This document shows, piece after piece, positions 1,413-11,242 of a stretch of DNA of 11,242 nt; position 1 is the stretch's first letter; the number at the start of each line of letters is the position of its first letter. Position numbers and translations under genes: made by a program. Source of the DNA: an uncultured Pseudomonadota bacterium (lineage in GTDB: Bacteria; Pseudomonadota; Gammaproteobacteria; Burkholderiales; SG8-39). A model generated the notes under the pieces. That model was not told the DNA's origin and ran no database searches. It worked only from the letters and a program-made list of their open reading frames with translations. The stretch spans positions 1-11,242 of the forward strand of contig CAIVVS010000333.1 in the NCBI GenBank assembly GCA_903909415.1, given 5' to 3'.

Positions 1413-2696
1413 ATGAACGCACCTGAGCACGGACCCGCGCATTCCCCCGAGGCAGCGGGCATCGCGCCGCTGGACTGGCACGAGCGCGGCATCTCCCGCG
1501 TGCCCTACCGCATCTACGCCGATCCGGCGCTGCACGAGGAGGAGCTCAAGCGCTTCTTCTACTCCGGCCACTGGTGCTACGCGGCCCTGTCCTGCGAGGT
1601 CCCGGAGCCGGGCGACTTCAAGCGCACCTGGATCGGCTCGCGGCAGGTGATCGTGGTGCGCGACACCGACGGCAGCGTCAACGTGGTGGAGAACCACTGC
1701 GCCCACCGCGGCGCGCAGTTCTGCCAGAAGGACCACGGCCGCGTCAGCGAATTCATCTGCCCCTACCACCAGTGGAGCTACGACCTGAAGGGCAACCTGC
1801 AGGGCGTGCCCTTCCTGCGCGGCGTGAAGAACGACGGCAAGGTCCAGGGCGGCATGCCCAAGGACTTCCGCCGCGAGGACCACGGCCTGACCAAGCTCAA
1901 GGTCGAGGAATGGAACGGCGTGGTCTGGGCGAGCTTCGACCACACGCTGGGCAGCGTGCGCGACTACCTCGGGCCGGAGGTGGCGCCCTGGTACGAGCGC
2001 GTGTTCAACGGCAGGAAGCTCACGCTGCTGGGCTACTCGCGCCAGCGCATCCCGGGCAACTGGAAGCTGATGCAGGAGAACATCAAGGACCCCTACCACC
2101 CGGGGCTGCTGCACACCTGGTTCGTGGTGTTCGGCCTGTGGCGCGCCGACCAGAAGTCGCAGCTGGTCACCGACGCGCTGCGCCGGCACGCGGTGATGGT
2201 GTCGCAGAAGAACGACGGCGGCAAGGGCGCGGTCACGCAGGGCGTGTCCTCGTTCAAGGAGAGCATGTCCCTGGAGGACCCGCGCGTGCTGGACGTGGTG
2301 CCCGAGCCCTGGTGGGGCGGGCCGACGGTGACCATGCTCACGCTGTTCCCCTCCGTGATCATCCAGCAGCAGGTCAACTCGGTGTCCACGCGCCACATCA
2401 TCCCGCGCGGCAACGGCGAGTTCGATTTCTGGTGGACCCACTTCGGCTACGAGGATGACACCCCGGAGATGACGCGCCGGCGCCTGCGCCAGGCCAACCT
2501 GTTCGGCCCGGCGGGCTATGTGTCGGCCGACGACGGCGAGGTGATCGAGATGCAGCAGGCGGGCTTCCGCCAGCACCCCGACCACCACACGGTGAGCGAG
2601 CTCGGCGGCCTGGAGACCGGCGGCACCGACCACAACGTGTCCGAGACCCTGATACGCGGCATGTACGACTACTGGCGAAAGGTGATGGCGCTATGA
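1413..2696 (+). CDS. nagG: Rieske non-heme iron oxygenase large (alpha) subunit, salicylate 5-hydroxylase-like
   Basis: This 427-residue catalytic subunit belongs to the aromatic-ring hydroxylating oxygenases. The N-terminal Rieske domain has the 2Fe-2S ligands C96-x-H98 and C116-x2-H119. The C-terminal catalytic domain carries NIKDPYHPGLLH, giving bridging Asp226 and iron ligands His229 and His234; the third ligand is probably Asp373 or Asp374 in the SADDGE segment. The overall sequence, including EPWWGGPT, FPSVIIQQQVNSVSTRH and the C-terminal TLIRGMYDYWRKVM, resembles my recollection of NagG, the large subunit of salicylate 5-hydroxylase, which makes gentisate. A related anthranilate- or benzoate-type oxygenase is possible. 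The ATG at 1413 has a strong AGGAGGAG site at 1400-1407. The stop overlaps the small-subunit start by 4 bp. The ferredoxin and reductase needed for electron supply are not in the window. Confidence 0.93.
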   Translation: MNAPEHGPAHSPEAAGIAPLDWHERGISRVPYRIYADPALHEEELKRFFYSGHWCYAALSCEVPEPGDFKRTWIGSRQVIVVRDTDGSVNVVENHCAHRGAQFCQKDHGRVSEFICPYHQWSYDLKGNLQGVPFLRGVKNDGKVQGGMPKDFRREDHGLTKLKVEEWNGVVWASFDHTLGSVRDYLGPEVAPWYERVFNGRKLTLLGYSRQRIPGNWKLMQENIKDPYHPGLLHTWFVVFGLWRADQKSQLVTDALRRHAVMVSQKNDGGKGAVTQGVSSFKESMSLEDPRVLDVVPEPWWGGPTVTMLTLFPSVIIQQQVNSVSTRHIIPRGNGEFDFWWTHFGYEDDTPEMTRRRLRQANLFGPAGYVSADDGEVIEMQQAGFRQHPDHHTVSELGGLETGGTDHNVSETLIRGMYDYWRKVMAL

Positions 2697-3250
2697 ACGC
2701 CCCCCTGAACCCGACCGCAGGCAAGGACGCCGTGGCGCCCGACTACACCCGCGCCGCAACGCTGGCCTCCGACGCAGTGCTGCGCGCCCAGCTGGAAGAC
2801 CTGTACGCGCGCTACGCCGCCTGCCTGGACGCCGGCCTGTACGACCAGTGGCCCGCGTTCTTCACCGAGGATTGCACCTACAAGCTGCAGCCGCGCGAGA
2901 ACTTCGAGCGCGGCCTGCCCTTGTGCACGCTGTCCTTCGAGAGCCGCGGCATGCTGCGCGACCGCGTCTACGGCATCACCCAGACCCTGTTCCACCAGCC
3001 CTACTACCAGCGCCATGCCGTATCCGGCCTGATGGTCACCGGGCAGGACGGCCCGGTGATTCTCGCCGAGGCGAACTACACCGTGGTGCGCACCCGCATG
3101 CACGAGCCCTCGGAGCTGCTGTCGGTCGGGCGCAGCTACGACCGGGTGGTGGGCGAAGCCGGCGATACCGCCGGGGAACTGCGTTTCGCCGCGCGCGTGT
3201 TCGTGTTCGACAACGACCTGATCCCCAACTCAGTCATCTACCCGATCTGA
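2693..3250 (+). CDS. nagH: Ring-hydroxylating oxygenase small (beta) subunit
   Basis: This 185-residue protein has the SnoaL/NTF2-like cone fold of Rieske oxygenase beta subunits, which has a structural role in the alpha3beta3 oxygenase and is not catalytic. Supporting features are the N-terminal helix (LEDLYARYAACLDAG) followed by WPAFFTEDCTYKLQP, a central LSFESRGMLRDRVYGI segment, and the typical ending FDNDLIPNSVIYPI. It is slightly longer than NagH-type small subunits because of an N-terminal extension of roughly 25 residues. The ATG overlaps the alpha-subunit stop codon (ATGA at 2693-2696), indicating translational coupling and equal expression of the two subunits. The pairing supports a two-component oxygenase of the salicylate 5-hydroxylase or anthranilate/benzoate dioxygenase type. 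Confidence 0.92.
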   Translation: MNAPLNPTAGKDAVAPDYTRAATLASDAVLRAQLEDLYARYAACLDAGLYDQWPAFFTEDCTYKLQPRENFERGLPLCTLSFESRGMLRDRVYGITQTLFHQPYYQRHAVSGLMVTGQDGPVILAEANYTVVRTRMHEPSELLSVGRSYDRVVGEAGDTAGELRFAARVFVFDNDLIPNSVIYPI

Positions 3251-3329
3251 GTTGCCCGCACCCGCCGGCGCGGGCGCGCCGCGTCACGAAGTTTTGCAGC
3301 GCCGCAATAGTGTTTGACCGGTGCGGCCT

Positions 3330-3349
3330 GCCCCGGCACGACCCGGGGC
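3330..3349. other. GC-rich hairpin in the gap before the membrane-protein gene
   Basis: GCCCCGG (3330-3336) and CCGGGGC (3343-3349) form a perfect 7-bp stem with a 6-nt loop, ending 14 bp before the ATG at 3364. No T-run follows in either direction, so it is not a clear intrinsic terminator. It could attenuate read-through or occlude the start region of the next gene. A second short stem (CCCGC/GCGGG at 3261-3274) lies just after the beta-subunit stop. The function of both is unknown. Confidence 0.4.
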
Positions 3350-3363
3350 GTTAGCATCGCTGC

Positions 3364-3798
3364 ATGATGAAAGCGTCCCTGCAGCAACGCATTTCCCCGG
3401 AGCCCGGCGGGCGCTGGCGCATGGTCCTGTCCGGTGCTGCCCTGGCCGGTGCGGCCTGGCAGCTGGCGCAGCACGGTTCGGGGGAACTCGCGTTGCCCTT
3501 CGCCATGGCCTGCTCGGTGACCTGCATGCTGCCCTGGCTGGCGATGCTGGCGCTGGTGCGCACCCTGCCGCTGCCCTTGTCGGGGGTCGCGCTGGCGGCG
3601 CTGGTGTCGCTGGAGCTGTCGGCGTTGTGCTTTTCCAGCGTGGGGCACGTGGACTACAGCCTGGCGCACTACGCGGCCAAGCCCGCTGCCCAGGCGGTGT
3701 TCCTGGCCCTGATGCTGACCGCCTCCGGCCTGCTGGCGCGGGCCCGTGGCGCGGCGTTCGCCGGTCCGGACAACGAGGCGGCGCCGAACGAGCGATAA
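3364..3798 (+). CDS. Small hypothetical membrane protein
   Basis: The 144-residue product has about four hydrophobic helices, at roughly residues 19-36, 43-65, 71-92 and 107-126. A basic N-terminus and a polar C-terminal tail (PDNEAAPNER) flank them, so it is probably an inner-membrane protein. I recognise no family. The codon pattern (strong G/C at third positions, in-frame Leu/Ala runs) looks like real coding sequence. It sits between the Rieske genes and the extradiol dioxygenase on the same strand, 113 bp after the former and 37 bp before the latter. The ribosome site is weak, and Met at 3367 is an equally possible start. A role in uptake or in the membrane stress response would be speculation. 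Confidence 0.6.
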   Translation: MMKASLQQRISPEPGGRWRMVLSGAALAGAAWQLAQHGSGELALPFAMACSVTCMLPWLAMLALVRTLPLPLSGVALAALVSLELSALCFSSVGHVDYSLAHYAAKPAAQAVFLALMLTASGLLARARGAAFAGPDNEAAPNER

Positions 3799-3835
3799 TC
3801 CCGTCCTTCGCATGCAAGCCGAACGGAGGATGGGA

Positions 3836-4723
3836 ATGAACCTGCGCAGCATCGAACTGGATGTCACCGACCTCGCCAAGGCGAGCGAATTCCTGACCGG
3901 AACCTGGGGACTGGCCGAGGCCGGCCGCAGCGGCAAGACCGCGTTCTTCCGCGGCACCGGCGACGCCCCTTACGTGATGGCGCTGACCGAGTCCTCCGGC
4001 CCGGCCGTGTCCACCGTGAGCTTCGCCATCGCCGAGTCCGAAGCCGATGCCCTGCGCAAGCGCGCCAGTGCCGCCGGCGCGAAGGTGTCGGCCACCGCCA
4101 AGGTGGACGAACCCGGCGGCGGCAGCGCCTTCACCATCGCCGGCCGCGAGGGCCAGGCCTACCGCTTCGTGTCCGGCGCCACGCCCGCCGGCGCCTTCAA
4201 GGCCACGGCGCTGCCCGCGGACATGTGCCCCAGCGGCCTTGCCCACGTGGTGTTCAACACGCCCGACCGCGATGCCTGCACGAAATTCATGCTGGATACC
4301 TTCGGCTTCCGCCTGTCGGACCGCACCGCGGTGATGGACTTCGTGCGCTGCGACAGCGTGCACCACGCCATCGCCTTCGCGCGCGGCGACCAGCCGGGGC
4401 TGAACCACATCGCCTTCGAGATGCCCTCCACCGACGCGCTGATGCGCGGCATCGGTCGCCTCGGCGACGCGGGCTTCAGCTCCCCCTGGGGCCCCGGACG
4501 CCACGGCCCGGGCAACAACGTGTTCGCCTATTTCATCGCGCCCTTCGGGGCCACGATCGAGTACACCGCCGAGGTCGAGCGCGTCGGCGAGGACTACCGC
4601 ACCGGCCAGCCCGAGGACTGGACCTGGCCGCCGGGGCGCGTCGACCACTGGGGCATCTCCAAGCGCGACAACGCGCGCCTGCACGAGGCGGAGGCGGCCT
4701 TCCGCTTCAAGCAGGCCGCATGA
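3836..4723 (+). CDS. Two-domain VOC protein, type I extradiol dioxygenase-like
   Basis: This 295-residue protein has two vicinal-oxygen-chelate modules (about 1-115 and 133-250), the architecture and length of extradiol ring-cleavage dioxygenases such as 2,3-dihydroxybiphenyl 1,2-dioxygenase. The second module keeps the 2-His-1-Glu iron site: His137 (GLAHVVF), His191 (LNHIAFE) and Glu242 (ATIEYTAE). The region 222-242 (GRHGPGNNVFAYFIAPFG plus E) follows the extradiol signature, with Ala where an aliphatic or aromatic residue precedes the Tyr. It probably cleaves a catecholic compound beside the hydroxyls, using Fe(II); the substrate is unknown. The start at 3836 is chosen because GGAGG (3825-3829) lies 6 nt upstream; in-frame ATGs at 3812 and 3830 are too far or overlap that site. 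Its stop overlaps the next gene's start by 4 bp. Confidence 0.87.
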   Translation: MNLRSIELDVTDLAKASEFLTGTWGLAEAGRSGKTAFFRGTGDAPYVMALTESSGPAVSTVSFAIAESEADALRKRASAAGAKVSATAKVDEPGGGSAFTIAGREGQAYRFVSGATPAGAFKATALPADMCPSGLAHVVFNTPDRDACTKFMLDTFGFRLSDRTAVMDFVRCDSVHHAIAFARGDQPGLNHIAFEMPSTDALMRGIGRLGDAGFSSPWGPGRHGPGNNVFAYFIAPFGATIEYTAEVERVGEDYRTGQPEDWTWPPGRVDHWGISKRDNARLHEAEAAFRFKQAA

Positions 4724-5709
4724 CCCCGCGCAGGGCAGTGCCGGGCGCGGCGCTGGCCGCATGCCTCCTGCTCGGTGCGGCGGGCGCCCACGCGCAGGCC
4801 CCCGCCGGCGCCGGCGAATGGCCCGCCCGCCCGGTGCGGGTGGTGATGCCCAACGCACCCGGCAGCTCCATCGACACCGTGGGCCGCATCGTGTCCGCGC
4901 GCCTGCAGGAACTGCTCGGCCAGCCGCTGGTGATCGAGAACAAGGCCGGCGCCAGCGGCGCGATCGGCATGGAGGCGGTCAAGGTCGCCCCGCCCGACGG
5001 CTACACGCTCGCGGTCGGCTCGGCCAGTTCCATGTCGGTGGCACCGCTGGTGCAGAAGAAGGTGCCCTACGACCCGTTGTACGACTTCGCCTTCGTGTCC
5101 CTGGTCGCGGTGATGCCCAACGTGCTGGTGGTCACGCCCTCGCTGCCGGTGAAGAACGTGGGCGAACTGATCGAGTACGCGCGCGCCAACCCGGGCAAGG
5201 TGAACATGGCCTCGGCCGGCGTGGGCGCGGCCAGCCACCTCGCGGGCGTGCTGTTCCAGACCATGGCGCGCTTCGAGGCGCTGCATGTGCCCTACAAGGG
5301 CGGCAGCCCGTCGGCCGCCGCGGTGGTGGCGGGCGAGTCGCAGTTCAGCATCACGCCGGCCCCCGCGGTGATGGGCCTGGTCAAGGGCGGGCGCCTGCGC
5401 GCGCTGGGCCACAGCCTGCCGCGCCGCACGCCGCTGCTGGACATGCCGTCGATCGCGGAGGCCGTGCCGGGCTATGACTACAACGGCTGGGCCGGCTTCG
5501 TCGCCCCGCGCGGCACGCAGCGCGCCGTGGTGGACAAGCTGCGCTTCGCGCTGGCCAAGGTGGTGGAGCTGCCGGCGGTGAAGGAAGCGCTGGGCGCGCA
5601 GGGCGCCGAGGCGACCATCACCACGCCCGAGGACTTCCGCACCTTCCTGGAGCGCGACCTCGCCAACAATGCGCGCGTGGTGAAGTCCGCGAACATCCAG
5701 CCGGAATGA
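4720..5709 (+). CDS. Bug/TctC-family periplasmic solute-binding protein
   Basis: The 329-residue product is a substrate-binding protein of the tripartite tricarboxylate transporter type, a family greatly expanded in Burkholderiales, where most members are orphans that bind carboxylates or aromatic acids. A signal peptide spans about 1-25, with a probable cut after AHA. Family motifs are PVRVVMPNAPGSSIDTVGR (about 38-56), GQPLVIENKAGASGAIG (67-83), PPDGYTLAVG (91-100) and HVPYKGG in the middle. No TctA or TctB membrane partner is nearby. The ATG overlaps the extradiol-dioxygenase stop (ATGA), so the two are translationally coupled, which links this binder to the same catabolic unit. The ligand is inferred to be an aromatic or related carboxylate. 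Confidence 0.92.
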   Translation: MTPRRAVPGAALAACLLLGAAGAHAQAPAGAGEWPARPVRVVMPNAPGSSIDTVGRIVSARLQELLGQPLVIENKAGASGAIGMEAVKVAPPDGYTLAVGSASSMSVAPLVQKKVPYDPLYDFAFVSLVAVMPNVLVVTPSLPVKNVGELIEYARANPGKVNMASAGVGAASHLAGVLFQTMARFEALHVPYKGGSPSAAAVVAGESQFSITPAPAVMGLVKGGRLRALGHSLPRRTPLLDMPSIAEAVPGYDYNGWAGFVAPRGTQRAVVDKLRFALAKVVELPAVKEALGAQGAEATITTPEDFRTFLERDLANNARVVKSANIQPE

Positions 5710-5728: not shown

Positions 5729-6601
5729 GTGAGCACCCACGCGCAGACCGGGCTGCACGCCGACTACGTGCAGCGCTTCCTGTTCGAGAACTTGGACATA
5801 CGCGGGCGGGTGGTGTCGCTCACCGGCGAGTGGGTGAAGATGGTGGCCGGGCGCAATTACCCGCCGCGCATCGTCTCGCTGCTGGGCCGCACCGCCGCGC
5901 TGGTGGTGCTGATGGGCGCGAACCAGAAGGCCGCGCGCCGCATCACCCTGCAGCTGCAGGGCGAGGGCCCGGTGACGCTGCTGGTGGCCGATTGCACGTC
6001 GGCCATGCGGCTGCGCGGCATGGCGCGCGCCATCGGCGAACTCGACCCCGCCGCCACGGACCGGGCCCTGCTGGGCAAGGGGCGCATGGCGCTCACGCTG
6101 GAGGACGACGCCACCGGCCAGACCTACCAGAGCCTGGTGCCGCTGGAGGGCGACAGCCTGGACGAGGTCTTCGGCCATTACCTCGCGCAGTCCGAGCAGG
6201 GCGAGGCCTTCATCCTGCTGCACGCCGACGAGCACTCGGCCAGCGCCATCCTGCTGGAGAAGCTGCCGGGCGCGGATGCGAAGGACGCCGACGGCTGGAA
6301 CCGCGTCACGCGGCTCGCGGCCACGCTCGCGCCGGGCGAGGCGGCCACGGTGTCGGCGGCGGACCTGCTGGTGCGCCTGTTCCACGAGGAACTGCTGCGC
6401 GTCTACCCGCTGCACGCGGTGGTCTACCACTGCCCGCGCGACGAGGAGAAGGTCGCCGACATGCTGCGCAGCCTAGGGCGCGCCGAGGTGGATTCGATCC
6501 TCGCCGAGCAGGGCGAGGTGAAGATCGTCAACGAGATGTGCAACCACGAGTACCGCTTCGACGCGGCGGCGGTTGCGAGGATGTTCGAAAAGATTAATTA
6601 A
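5729..6601 (+). CDS. hslO: Hsp33-like redox chaperone HslO with an incomplete zinc motif
   Basis: This 290-residue protein is of normal length for Hsp33, a cytoplasmic holdase chaperone activated by oxidation and unfolding. The N-terminal domain is recognisable (YVQRFLFENLDIRGRVVSL, the ITLQLQGEGPVTLLVADC segment, and ALTLEDDATGQTYQSLVPLEGDSL). Normal Hsp33 holds zinc with CxC and CxxC near the C-terminus. Here these read Y233-H-C235-P-R and N268-E-M-C271-N, so two of the four cysteines are missing; His234 and His273 are nearby and could substitute. The usual redox switch is therefore doubtful. The start is GTG at 5729, 19 bp after the Bug gene, without a strong ribosome site; coupling to the upstream gene is likely. 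A terminator hairpin begins at the stop codon. No better name than HslO is apparent. Confidence 0.88.
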   Translation: MSTHAQTGLHADYVQRFLFENLDIRGRVVSLTGEWVKMVAGRNYPPRIVSLLGRTAALVVLMGANQKAARRITLQLQGEGPVTLLVADCTSAMRLRGMARAIGELDPAATDRALLGKGRMALTLEDDATGQTYQSLVPLEGDSLDEVFGHYLAQSEQGEAFILLHADEHSASAILLEKLPGADAKDADGWNRVTRLAATLAPGEAATVSAADLLVRLFHEELLRVYPLHAVVYHCPRDEEKVADMLRSLGRAEVDSILAEQGEVKIVNEMCNHEYRFDAAAVARMFEKIN

Positions 6602-8950: not shown

Positions 8951-10003
8951 ATGCCATCCGGCCCCGCAATCCCCCGCAGTACCCGCAGCACCCGCAGCAC
9001 CCGAGGCGCGCGTCGGCGCGCCGGCCTTGCCGCCGTCCTTGGCAGCGCGTTCGCCCTCGCCGCCGCGCCGGCCTGGTCCCAGGGCCAGTCGGCAGCGACC
9101 GGTACCTGGCCGAACAAGTCGCTGCGCATCGTGGTGCCGCTCACGCCCGGCGGCGCCAACGACCTGCTCGGCCGGCTGTTCGCCGAGCGCATGCAGGCGG
9201 CGCTGGGCCAGCCGGTGGTGGTGGAGAACCGTCCCGGCGCCGGCGGCAACGTCGGCACCGAGTACGTCGCGCGCCAGCCGGCCGACGGGTACACGCTGGT
9301 GGTCTCGTCCATCACCCACGTGGTGAACCTGAGCTTCTTCGCCAAGCTGCCCTACGACCCGATCAAGGACTTCGAGCCGGTGTCGCTGGTCGCGACCGTG
9401 CCCTTCCTGATGACCGTCAACGCCGCGCTGCCGGTCACGTCGGCCCGGGAGCTGATCGCCCTGCTCAAGGCCAAGCCCGGTTCCACCTACGGCACCGCCG
9501 GCATCGGCACCCCGCACCACCTGGGCGCGGAGCTGCTGCGCACCATGGCGGGCGTGGAGATCACGCACGTGCCGTACAAGGGCGCGGCGGGCATCGTGCC
9601 GGCGCTGCTGGCCAACGAGGTGACCTTCTCGATCGCCTCCAGCAGCTCGCTGGTGCAGCACTTCCGCTCCGGCAAGCTGCGCGCGCTGGCGATCGCCGAC
9701 GGCACGCGCTCGCCGCTGTTTCCGGACGTGCCGACCATCGCCGAGGCCGCCGGCCTGTCGGGCTATTCCATCGACGTCTGGCTGGGCCTGCTCGCGCCCG
9801 CCGGCACACCGCGCCCCATCATCGACCGGCTGAACGACCTGGCCAACCGCACGGTGCGCGACCCGCAGGTGGCGAAGGACCGGCTGAACTCGGTCGGCCT
9901 GCAGGGCGTGGGCACCACGCCCGAGCGCTACATGGAAGTGATGAAGGCCGACATCATCAAGTACGCGAAGATCGCGAAGGACGCGGGGATCAAGCCGGAG
10001 TAG
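8951..10003 (+). CDS. Second Bug/TctC-family periplasmic solute-binding protein
   Basis: The 350-residue product is a paralogue of the Bug protein at 4720-5709. Its motifs are LRIVVPLTPGGANDLLGR (about 58-75), GQPVVVENRPGAGGNVG, PADGYTLVV and THVPYKGAAG. The signal peptide is unusually long: a basic N-region with three Arg-Ser-Thr repeats and RRR at 21-23, a hydrophobic core, and a probable cut after AWS (about residue 43). The ATG at 8951 follows GAGGAGGAG (8936-8944) by 6 nt and is preferred over an in-frame ATG at 8927, whose ribosome site is poor. It is divergent from the gentisate dioxygenase and shares its regulatory region, suggesting a ligand such as salicylate, gentisate or a precursor; that is inference. 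No TctAB partner is nearby. The 3' end overlaps the convergent integrase gene by 14 bp. Confidence 0.93.
   Translation: MPSGPAIPRSTRSTRSTRGARRRAGLAAVLGSAFALAAAPAWSQGQSAATGTWPNKSLRIVVPLTPGGANDLLGRLFAERMQAALGQPVVVENRPGAGGNVGTEYVARQPADGYTLVVSSITHVVNLSFFAKLPYDPIKDFEPVSLVATVPFLMTVNAALPVTSARELIALLKAKPGSTYGTAGIGTPHHLGAELLRTMAGVEITHVPYKGAAGIVPALLANEVTFSIASSSSLVQHFRSGKLRALAIADGTRSPLFPDVPTIAEAAGLSGYSIDVWLGLLAPAGTPRPIIDRLNDLANRTVRDPQVAKDRLNSVGLQGVGTTPERYMEVMKADIIKYAKIAKDAGIKPE
8973..8999 (+). repeat. 9-bp tandem repeat inside the Bug signal peptide
   Basis: Three contiguous 9-bp units (CCCGCAGTA, then CCCGCAGCA twice) encode Arg-Ser-Thr repeats before the hydrophobic core of the signal peptide. A fourth, degenerate unit follows. 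Because the period is a multiple of three, slippage would change the length of the N-region without a frameshift. Confidence 0.85.
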
Positions 10004-11060
10004 GGCCGGAGACATGGGCGGCTGCCGCGGCCGCCCGGTCCAGCGCGACATCCACGCCTGCGCGGTCCAGCGGGCTGCGCACGCCACGCGCGCCCTTGTT
10101 CATCACGTGTGTGTAGATCATGGTGGTCTCGACGCTGGCGTGGCCGAGCAGCTCCTGGATGGTGCGGATGTCGGTGCCTGACTGCAGCAGGTGTGTCGCG
10201 AACGAATGGCGCAGCGTGTGGCAGGACACCGGTTTCATGATGGCGGCCGCTTGCGCCGCGCGCTTGACCGCGCGCCCGAGGGTGTCGGGGTGGATGTGGT
10301 GGCGGCGAATCACGCCGGACTCGGGGTCCGCCGAGCGACTCCCCGAGGGGAACACGAACTGCCAGCCCCATTGCCGCCCCGCCCTGGGGTACTTGCGCGA
10401 GAGCGCGTGCGGCAGCCACACCTCGCCGCAGCCCTCGGCCAGGTCCCGGTTGTGCAGCACGCGCACGCGCCCGAGGTGCGCCTGCAGCGGCTGCACCACG
10501 GCCTCGGGCAGCATGGTCACGCGGTCCTTGCCGCCCTTGGCGTCGCGGATGAACAACTGCCGGTAAGCGAAATCGACGTCCTTCACTCGCAGCTTCAGGC
10601 ATTCGGCCTGCCGCAGCCCGGCTCCGTAGAGCAGGCTCGCCATCATCCAGGCACCGCCCTGCAGGTGCGAGAGTAGGCGCGTGGCCTCATCCTCCGTGAG
10701 CACCGTGGGCAGGCGCACAGGGCGCTTGGCGCGCACCATGTCGTCAAGCCAAGGCAGGTTGACGTGGAGCACATGCTTGTAGAGGAACAAAAGCGAAGAA
10801 AGTGCCTGGTTCTGCGTCGACGCCGCCACATTGCGATCCGTCGCCAGCCACGACAGGAATTCGGCGACCTCCGGTGCCCCCATGTCGGCGGGGTGCCGCT
10901 TGTCGTTGCGGACGATGAAGTACCGAATCCAATAGACATAGGCCTTTTCGGTCCGGAGGCTGTAGTGGTTCATGCGCATGCAGCGGCGCACCTGATCCAG
11001 CAGCCGCGGTTTTCCTGGAGCCGATGGAGGATTCCTTGGTGGTTCAATGGGTTGTGCCAT
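9990..11060 (-). CDS. intI: Integron integrase IntI (tyrosine recombinase)
   Basis: This 356-residue site-specific recombinase recombines attI with cassette attC sites. The N-terminal SAM-like domain has LLDQVRRCMRMNHYSLRTEKAY. The catalytic domain has Arg150 (GAGLRQAEC), a beta-hairpin lysine (Lys175 or Lys178), His281 and Arg284 (HTLRHSFATHLL), His307 (LLGHAS) and nucleophile Tyr316 (TTMIYTHV). The segment LPHALSRKYPRAGRQWGWQFVF (about 216-237, cf. ALERKYPRAG in IntI1) is the insertion that separates integron integrases from XerC/D and phage integrases. All catalytic residues are present, so it is probably functional. It is about 19 residues longer than IntI1; after SPLD the last ~25 residues are Ala-rich and run into the end of the Bug gene. 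It is oriented away from the attI-like region, as usual. No ribosome site is obvious at the ATG, and a LexA box covers the promoter. Confidence 0.95.
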   Translation of the reverse strand: MAQPIEPPRNPPSAPGKPRLLDQVRRCMRMNHYSLRTEKAYVYWIRYFIVRNDKRHPADMGAPEVAEFLSWLATDRNVAASTQNQALSSLLFLYKHVLHVNLPWLDDMVRAKRPVRLPTVLTEDEATRLLSHLQGGAWMMASLLYGAGLRQAECLKLRVKDVDFAYRQLFIRDAKGGKDRVTMLPEAVVQPLQAHLGRVRVLHNRDLAEGCGEVWLPHALSRKYPRAGRQWGWQFVFPSGSRSADPESGVIRRHHIHPDTLGRAVKRAAQAAAIMKPVSCHTLRHSFATHLLQSGTDIRTIQELLGHASVETTMIYTHVMNKGARGVRSPLDRAGVDVALDRAAAAAAHVSGPTPA

Positions 11061-11082
11061 GTTGCGCCGGCTTTCAAGGAGG

Positions 11083-11098
11083 CTGTATATTTATACAG
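11083..11098. promoter_or_regulatory. LexA (SOS) box over the integrase promoter
   Basis: CTGTATATTTATACAG matches the CTGT-N8-ACAG LexA consensus at every defined position, with an AT-only centre. It lies 22 bp upstream of the integrase ATG. On the minus strand it contains TATAAA (plus positions 11090-11095), a likely -10 box, so LexA binding would block intI transcription. SOS control is known for many integron integrases. Confidence 0.85.
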
Positions 11099-11103
11099 TA
11101 CCG

Positions 11104-11192
11104 TAACGCCTTGAAATCAGGGAAGGTTGACAACAACGCGCCGGATTTCAACCTTGATATCCGGCATCTTTGCTGACTATTGAACGTTAGGC
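11104..11192 (+). other. attI-like recombination region with a GTTAGGC core
   Basis: The region just upstream of intI and divergent from it should hold attI. GTTAGGC at 11186-11192 matches the GTTRRRY core at which integrases exchange strands, and it directly precedes a possible cassette start. Nearby symmetry includes TAACG (11104-11108) with CGTTA (11185-11189), each 8 nt from TCAG (11117-11120) and CTGA (11173-11176). There is also AAGGTTG/CAACCTT (11123-11129, 11149-11155) and GCCGGAT/ATCCGGC (11140-11146, 11159-11165). The core position is well supported by context; the boundaries of the full site are approximate. Confidence 0.7.
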
Positions 11193-11200
11193 CTTATTCC

Positions 11201-11242
11201 ATGGCTGGAAACATTGAATCGTTCGCCCGCCTCTCGGACAAA
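11201..11242 (+). CDS. Start of a probable first gene-cassette ORF (cut by the window end)
   Basis: An ATG lies 8 bp after the GTTAGGC core and stays open for 14 codons to the window edge (MAGNIESFARLSDK). First cassettes normally begin within a few bases of the core, so the position fits. No family can be named from 14 residues, and the ribosome site is weak. Confidence 0.4.
   Translation, partial: MAGNIESFARLSDK

Follow-up and report, generated by a model that had tools for sequence, protein, structure and literature searches.

The described systems closest to the locus analysed here are the sedentary chromosomal integrons of Burkholderiales from the freshwater and soil group. According to a part of PMC8618304, complete integrons occur in 10% of betaproteobacterial genomes, and the same part states that the cassettes of sedentary chromosomal integrons are mostly of unknown function. 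In a section of PMC3108266, 624 of 1,103 intI promoter regions are reported to contain putative LexA sites, every one of the CTGTN8ACAG-type motif, and the combination of a LexA box with intI is thus a well-known arrangement. The integrases of the mobile class 1 and class 3 integrons belong to the same protein family, the active-site residues and the IntI-type stretch being common to IntI3 and the integrase described below.

The window, i.e. the whole stretch of DNA that was analysed, has a length of 11,242 nt and comprises the whole contig, which ends 50 nt past a GTTAGGC core. With high probability it belongs to a Burkholderiales-type bacterium and holds the platform end of a sedentary (chromosomal) integron, with a LexA-repressed intI and with cassettes from position 11187 onwards. 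It resembles the Burkholderiales sedentary chromosomal integrons in the family and clade of its IntI and in the divergent intI with a core ahead of the presumed cassettes, and its relatives carry attC sites. It differs from them in that the array would lie outside the contig and in that no other of the 120 protein matches listed exceeds 85% identity to its IntI. The platform is of a common environmental type whose integrase, LexA box and attI arrangement are already known. The integron platform proposed in a preliminary description of this DNA was borne out by the protein family, the trees, the LexA box and the comparative attI boundary.

Based on the protein sequence analysis the gene at 9990..11060 on the minus strand is an integron integrase gene (intI, 356 aa). 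The predicted protein matched the NCBIfam integron integrase model TIGR02249 with 470.4 bits (cut-off 265), contains the Pfam domains PF13495 and PF00589 and retains all of the active-site residues (R150, K175, H281, R284, H307 and Y316). The stretch ALSRKYPRAGRQWGWQFVFPS, which begins at residue 219 and which we take to be the IntI-specific region (219-239), is likewise present, so both the catalytic residues and the insertion that had been noticed previously were recovered, and by family and IntI-type stretch the protein qualifies as the integrase of an integron. Residues 21-333, active-site residues included, could be aligned with the solved Vibrio cholerae integrase IntI4 (PDB 2a3v; E 4.9e-88), which is distant from the IntI of the window in the tree and sits there on a long branch of unsure placement. 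The reading frame is intact and its tail beyond SPLDR varies between the relatives compared in the alignment. The database record of the protein has a later start and a length of 329 residues; the start at 11060 is favoured since relatives align ahead of the later one. The statement that intI is as GC-rich as its neighbours was roughly borne out by its overall GC content (0.670 vs 0.651-0.729 in the 11 other genes of the window), but its GC3 of 0.843 is the lowest among the 12 genes measured.

A tree with 87 rows (the window, 75 loci, 10 proteins from the protein search and IntI4) placed the integrase among proteins of metagenomes and betaproteobacterial MAGs, within sets of 6 rows (100/99), 16 rows (98/93), which form a betaproteobacterial clade, and 31 rows (100/97). 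Five of the 80 loci are missing from this tree, either because the matched frame contained a stop or because the match began beyond residue 30 or ended short of residue 325. Among the 120 matches listed the nearest other protein is 85% identical to IntI, and where a source is named, the nearest integrases belong to betaproteobacterial MAGs; the integrase of locus L002, the closest relative with flanking sequence, shares 78% identity. Integrases of the TIGR02249 type are common: a sample of 100 genomes from the order to which L002 belongs included 42 that encode one above the cut-off (0 of 14 control genomes). The window adds one intact, LexA-boxed integrase with its attI from a betaproteobacterial-type lineage, and without a sequenced array no open question hangs on this particular copy.

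The LexA box expected at intI from the preliminary description was located at 11083..11098 (no strand assigned) as the exact CTGTN8ACAG sequence CTGTATATTTATACAG, 22 nt ahead of the intI start codon. When 11061-11242 was shuffled 5000 times by mononucleotides, 12 of the shuffles contained an exact motif of this kind. Sites with one mismatch are no commoner in the whole window than expected by chance (2 observed vs 3.18 expected), and the weight of the box thus derives from its exactness and its placement. Among 23 loci whose region upstream of intI was scanned, three also had an exact box, namely L002, L003 and L007 (in L007 in the CTG-N10-CAG form), at 23-25 nt from the intI start, and none was found in the other 20. 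As judged from its sequence, the promoter region of intI is that of an SOS-regulated integron, and the box is likely to function as a damage-response switch. No sigma-70-like promoter was found in 9900-11242, either for intI or for cassettes (Pc).

The core GTTAGGC, suggested earlier as the attI core, is located at 11186..11192 on the plus strand, beside intI, and its assignment is based on sequence comparison with L002. In integrons the crossover takes place between the G and the T of the core, here expected between G11186 and T11187. The core by itself is weak evidence, because the GTTRRRY class arose in 787 of 5000 shuffles of 11061-11242. The intergenic region between intI and attI (11061..11185, plus strand, 47% GC (0.472)) is 73% identical to that of L002 from the intI start up to GTTAG, a value that none of 500 shuffles reached, whereas beyond the core the two sequences show no similarity (369 of 500 shuffles score as well). 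Furthermore, the window and L002 have the 12 bases ATTGAACGTTAG in common, which among 131 loci occur exactly only in L002 and its duplicate record L082. The attI assignment is strengthened by these shared bases together with the end of the similarity at the core, and the loss of similarity past GTTAG is what a cassette boundary would predict. The boundary is seen with this one close relative, whose own core reads GTTAGAA and does not conform to GTTRRRY. The class was present in 14 and absent in 9 of the 23 scanned regions upstream of intI; the invariant GTTA in an alignment of seven loci is partly the result of selection, as these loci were chosen after the core scan.

The DNA from 11187 on (11187..11242, plus strand) is most likely the start of the first cassette, cut by the contig end, and a cassette array to the right of the core is likely. 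The preliminary description had placed an ORF start after the core, and an ATG is indeed found at 11201; the open frame comprises 14 codons up to the contig end, which is too short for a gene call. A search with a degenerate pattern of the first nine codons of this frame, with no mismatch allowed, was negative in 250 genomes and in viral stretches, and the best tblastn match of the 14 residues in 80 loci had an E value of 0.65. Against plasmids, blastn of 11150-11242 returned four matches, all 19-24 nt long, the best of them with an E value of 0.06. The covariance model for attC described below detected no credible site in the window, its best match scoring 11.5 bits (E 0.16). Since the contig ends 50 nt past the core, the array of the window is unreadable. 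That the first cassette encodes a protein starting with MAGNIESFARLSDK of a family not yet seen, and that it sits in an array next to an aromatic-degradation locus with its exchange controlled by the SOS response, is a tentative proposal which we regard as somewhat doubtful.

Established integron knowledge suggests an SOS-induced IntI inserting cassettes at attI. In the window LexA would repress intI until DNA damage relieves the repression; the integrase would thereupon integrate gene cassettes in circular form at the core G^TTAGGC (11186) and release them again through attC x attI or attC x attC recombination. The contig would stop past the core because variable cassette arrays break assemblies. 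The same point, that integrons are split between contigs in draft genomes, is made in a part of PMC9024848. In 80 contigs with related integrases (L001-L080; distances to the contig end capped at 10 kb) the shorter flank was that of the cassette side in 58 and that of the other side in 14, the two being equal in the remaining 8 (Wilcoxon p 5e-9), and flanks of less than 1500 nt were found on the cassette side in 43 vs 7 on the other side. In the subset with at least 60% identity (n=28) the corresponding numbers were 19, 5 and 4 (p 0.005). As related contigs tend to stop on the cassette side, the contig end of the window looks like the usual assembly break. This bias offers a likely explanation for the cassette-less appearance of such integrons in metagenomes, and it would inflate the counts of cassette-less integrons in MAGs.

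The search for attC sites in the related loci yielded few candidates under strict R''/R' complementarity, and a relaxed search took its place. Since attC sites are near-palindromic, the reverse-strand control of the relaxed search (60 sites against 53) has no discriminating power. From the relatives 26 sites were picked by pattern and fold for the covariance model R1, whose consensus structure comprises five pairs only and whose scores on these training sites are not independent. Applied to the window and to 34 of the 131 loci, R1 detected attC sites at E<=0.001 in 17 of the 34, or in 16 of 33 distinct loci given that L024 and L109 are the same locus; all 41 matches lie on the cassette side in array orientation. 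At least one site outside the training set was present in 12 of the 16 (L003, L007, L009, L010, L012, L017, L021, L024, L027, L102, L105 and L107). Of the nearest relatives, L003 carries a single such site of 47.9 bits, and L007 four sites at E<=0.001 and six at E<=1, one of them a training site, while both sites of L004 are training sites, one via the duplicate record L084. In L002, within whose integrase match a TGA was reported, a single weak site was detected (16.6 bits, E 0.3). No site at E<=0.001 was found in the other 17 loci, 13 of which hold less than 1000 nt of cassette-side sequence; the remainder are L008 (3847 nt), L011 (1384 nt), L023 (7202 nt) and L108 (1503 nt).

These data have to be weighed against three other readings of the locus. 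If a tyrosine recombinase of the XerC/XerD or phage kind had been misidentified as IntI, the two would have the tyrosine recombinase domain PF00589 in common, but the scores against XerD (146.1 bits, cut-off 329.6) and XerC (142.5 bits, cut-off 335.15) remained below half of the cut-offs, on which grounds this identity was rejected. A small tree (the window, 17 of the 75 loci, two proteins, L130, L131 and four Xer-like frames) separated the 22 integrase rows including the window from the four Xer-like rows by a branch of 100/99, one of these four rows, L094, being a doubtful, seemingly wrong reading frame (four of eight Xer candidates had been dropped by length). A grouping of IntI with XerC/D, against which the preliminary description had proposed to check the integrase, was thus not observed, and no relative was found in viral contigs by the six peptide patterns searched. 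Taken together, such a misidentification is exceedingly improbable. An integron of the mobile class 1, 2 or 3 type, recently inserted at this position, could be suggested by the lowest GC3 value of intI and by the 14-nt overlap of its stop end with the end of a TctC-type gene, so that the platform closely abuts a resident gene. However, IntI is only 52% identical to the class 3 integrase IntI3 of L130, near-identity to IntI1 or IntI3 was not observed, and the best plasmid match shares 56.8% identity, each of the best 5000 plasmid records remaining below 60%. Moreover, unlike in mobile class 1 and class 3 integrons, no transposase, replication protein or other transposon or plasmid protein was detected among the proteins scanned (10 in one profile scan and 9 in another). 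A recent mobile origin therefore seems very improbable. Since the plasmid records are less than 60% identical and the nearest named sources are betaproteobacterial MAGs, a resident environmental type is supported, in agreement with the earlier view of a resident rather than a mobile class 1 element, and the integron of the window is very probably resident in nature.

The reading which deserves most attention besides the sedentary integron with cassettes is an In0, i.e. a functional or remnant integrase with its attI, without cassettes and with ordinary chromosome following the core. The window without a credible attC site would be consistent with it, as would the post-core frame cut at 14 codons, whose nine-codon pattern is unmatched in the 250 genomes and the viral contigs, and the four of 17 attC-less loci that hold more than 1300 nt of cassette-side sequence. 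Taking into account, on the other hand, that attC sites occur at the equivalent place in 16 of 33 distinct relatives, that related contigs tend to break off on the cassette side and that the IntI frame is intact, an In0 seems unlikely, albeit less so than the two readings considered above.

The genes to the left of intI are predicted to encode a TctC-type receptor, a gentisate 1,2-dioxygenase (529 bits, cut-off 442), a CPBP protease, an Hsp33-type protein and a pair of ring-hydroxylating dioxygenase subunits. No functional link between these neighbouring genes and the integron was found in the window. The TctC-type receptor gene next to intI is convergent with it, their ends overlapping by 14 nt (9990-10003). 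The region 1413-5709 encodes the large and small subunits of the ring-hydroxylating dioxygenase, an extradiol-dioxygenase-like protein and a TctC receptor, all in one direction, and the matches of its three dioxygenase-type proteins were far below the equivalog cut-offs. Between the genes of a RidA-like protein and a Rieske dioxygenase the 23-bp unit TGGCGCAGCCATTCGTAGCCGGG is repeated in 3.5 tandem copies (1212-1291).

A search with the Hsp33-type protein revealed a 96% identical relative on a contig of 39,614 nt. In the search for an empty site none of the 120 listed TctC matches had a longest contig of 39,614 nt. The Hsp33-type protein itself (5729-6601) reached 190.8 bits, below the NCBIfam Hsp33 cut-off of 244. 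Hsp33 usually carries the zinc motif CxC...CxxC, which is missing from the protein of the window, where one cysteine of each pair is kept (YHCP...NEMCNH). The full motif was likewise absent from the last 90 residues of all 120 Hsp33-type matches listed of 4541. Judging from these sequences, the protein could be a member of a chaperone clade whose redox switch is altered.
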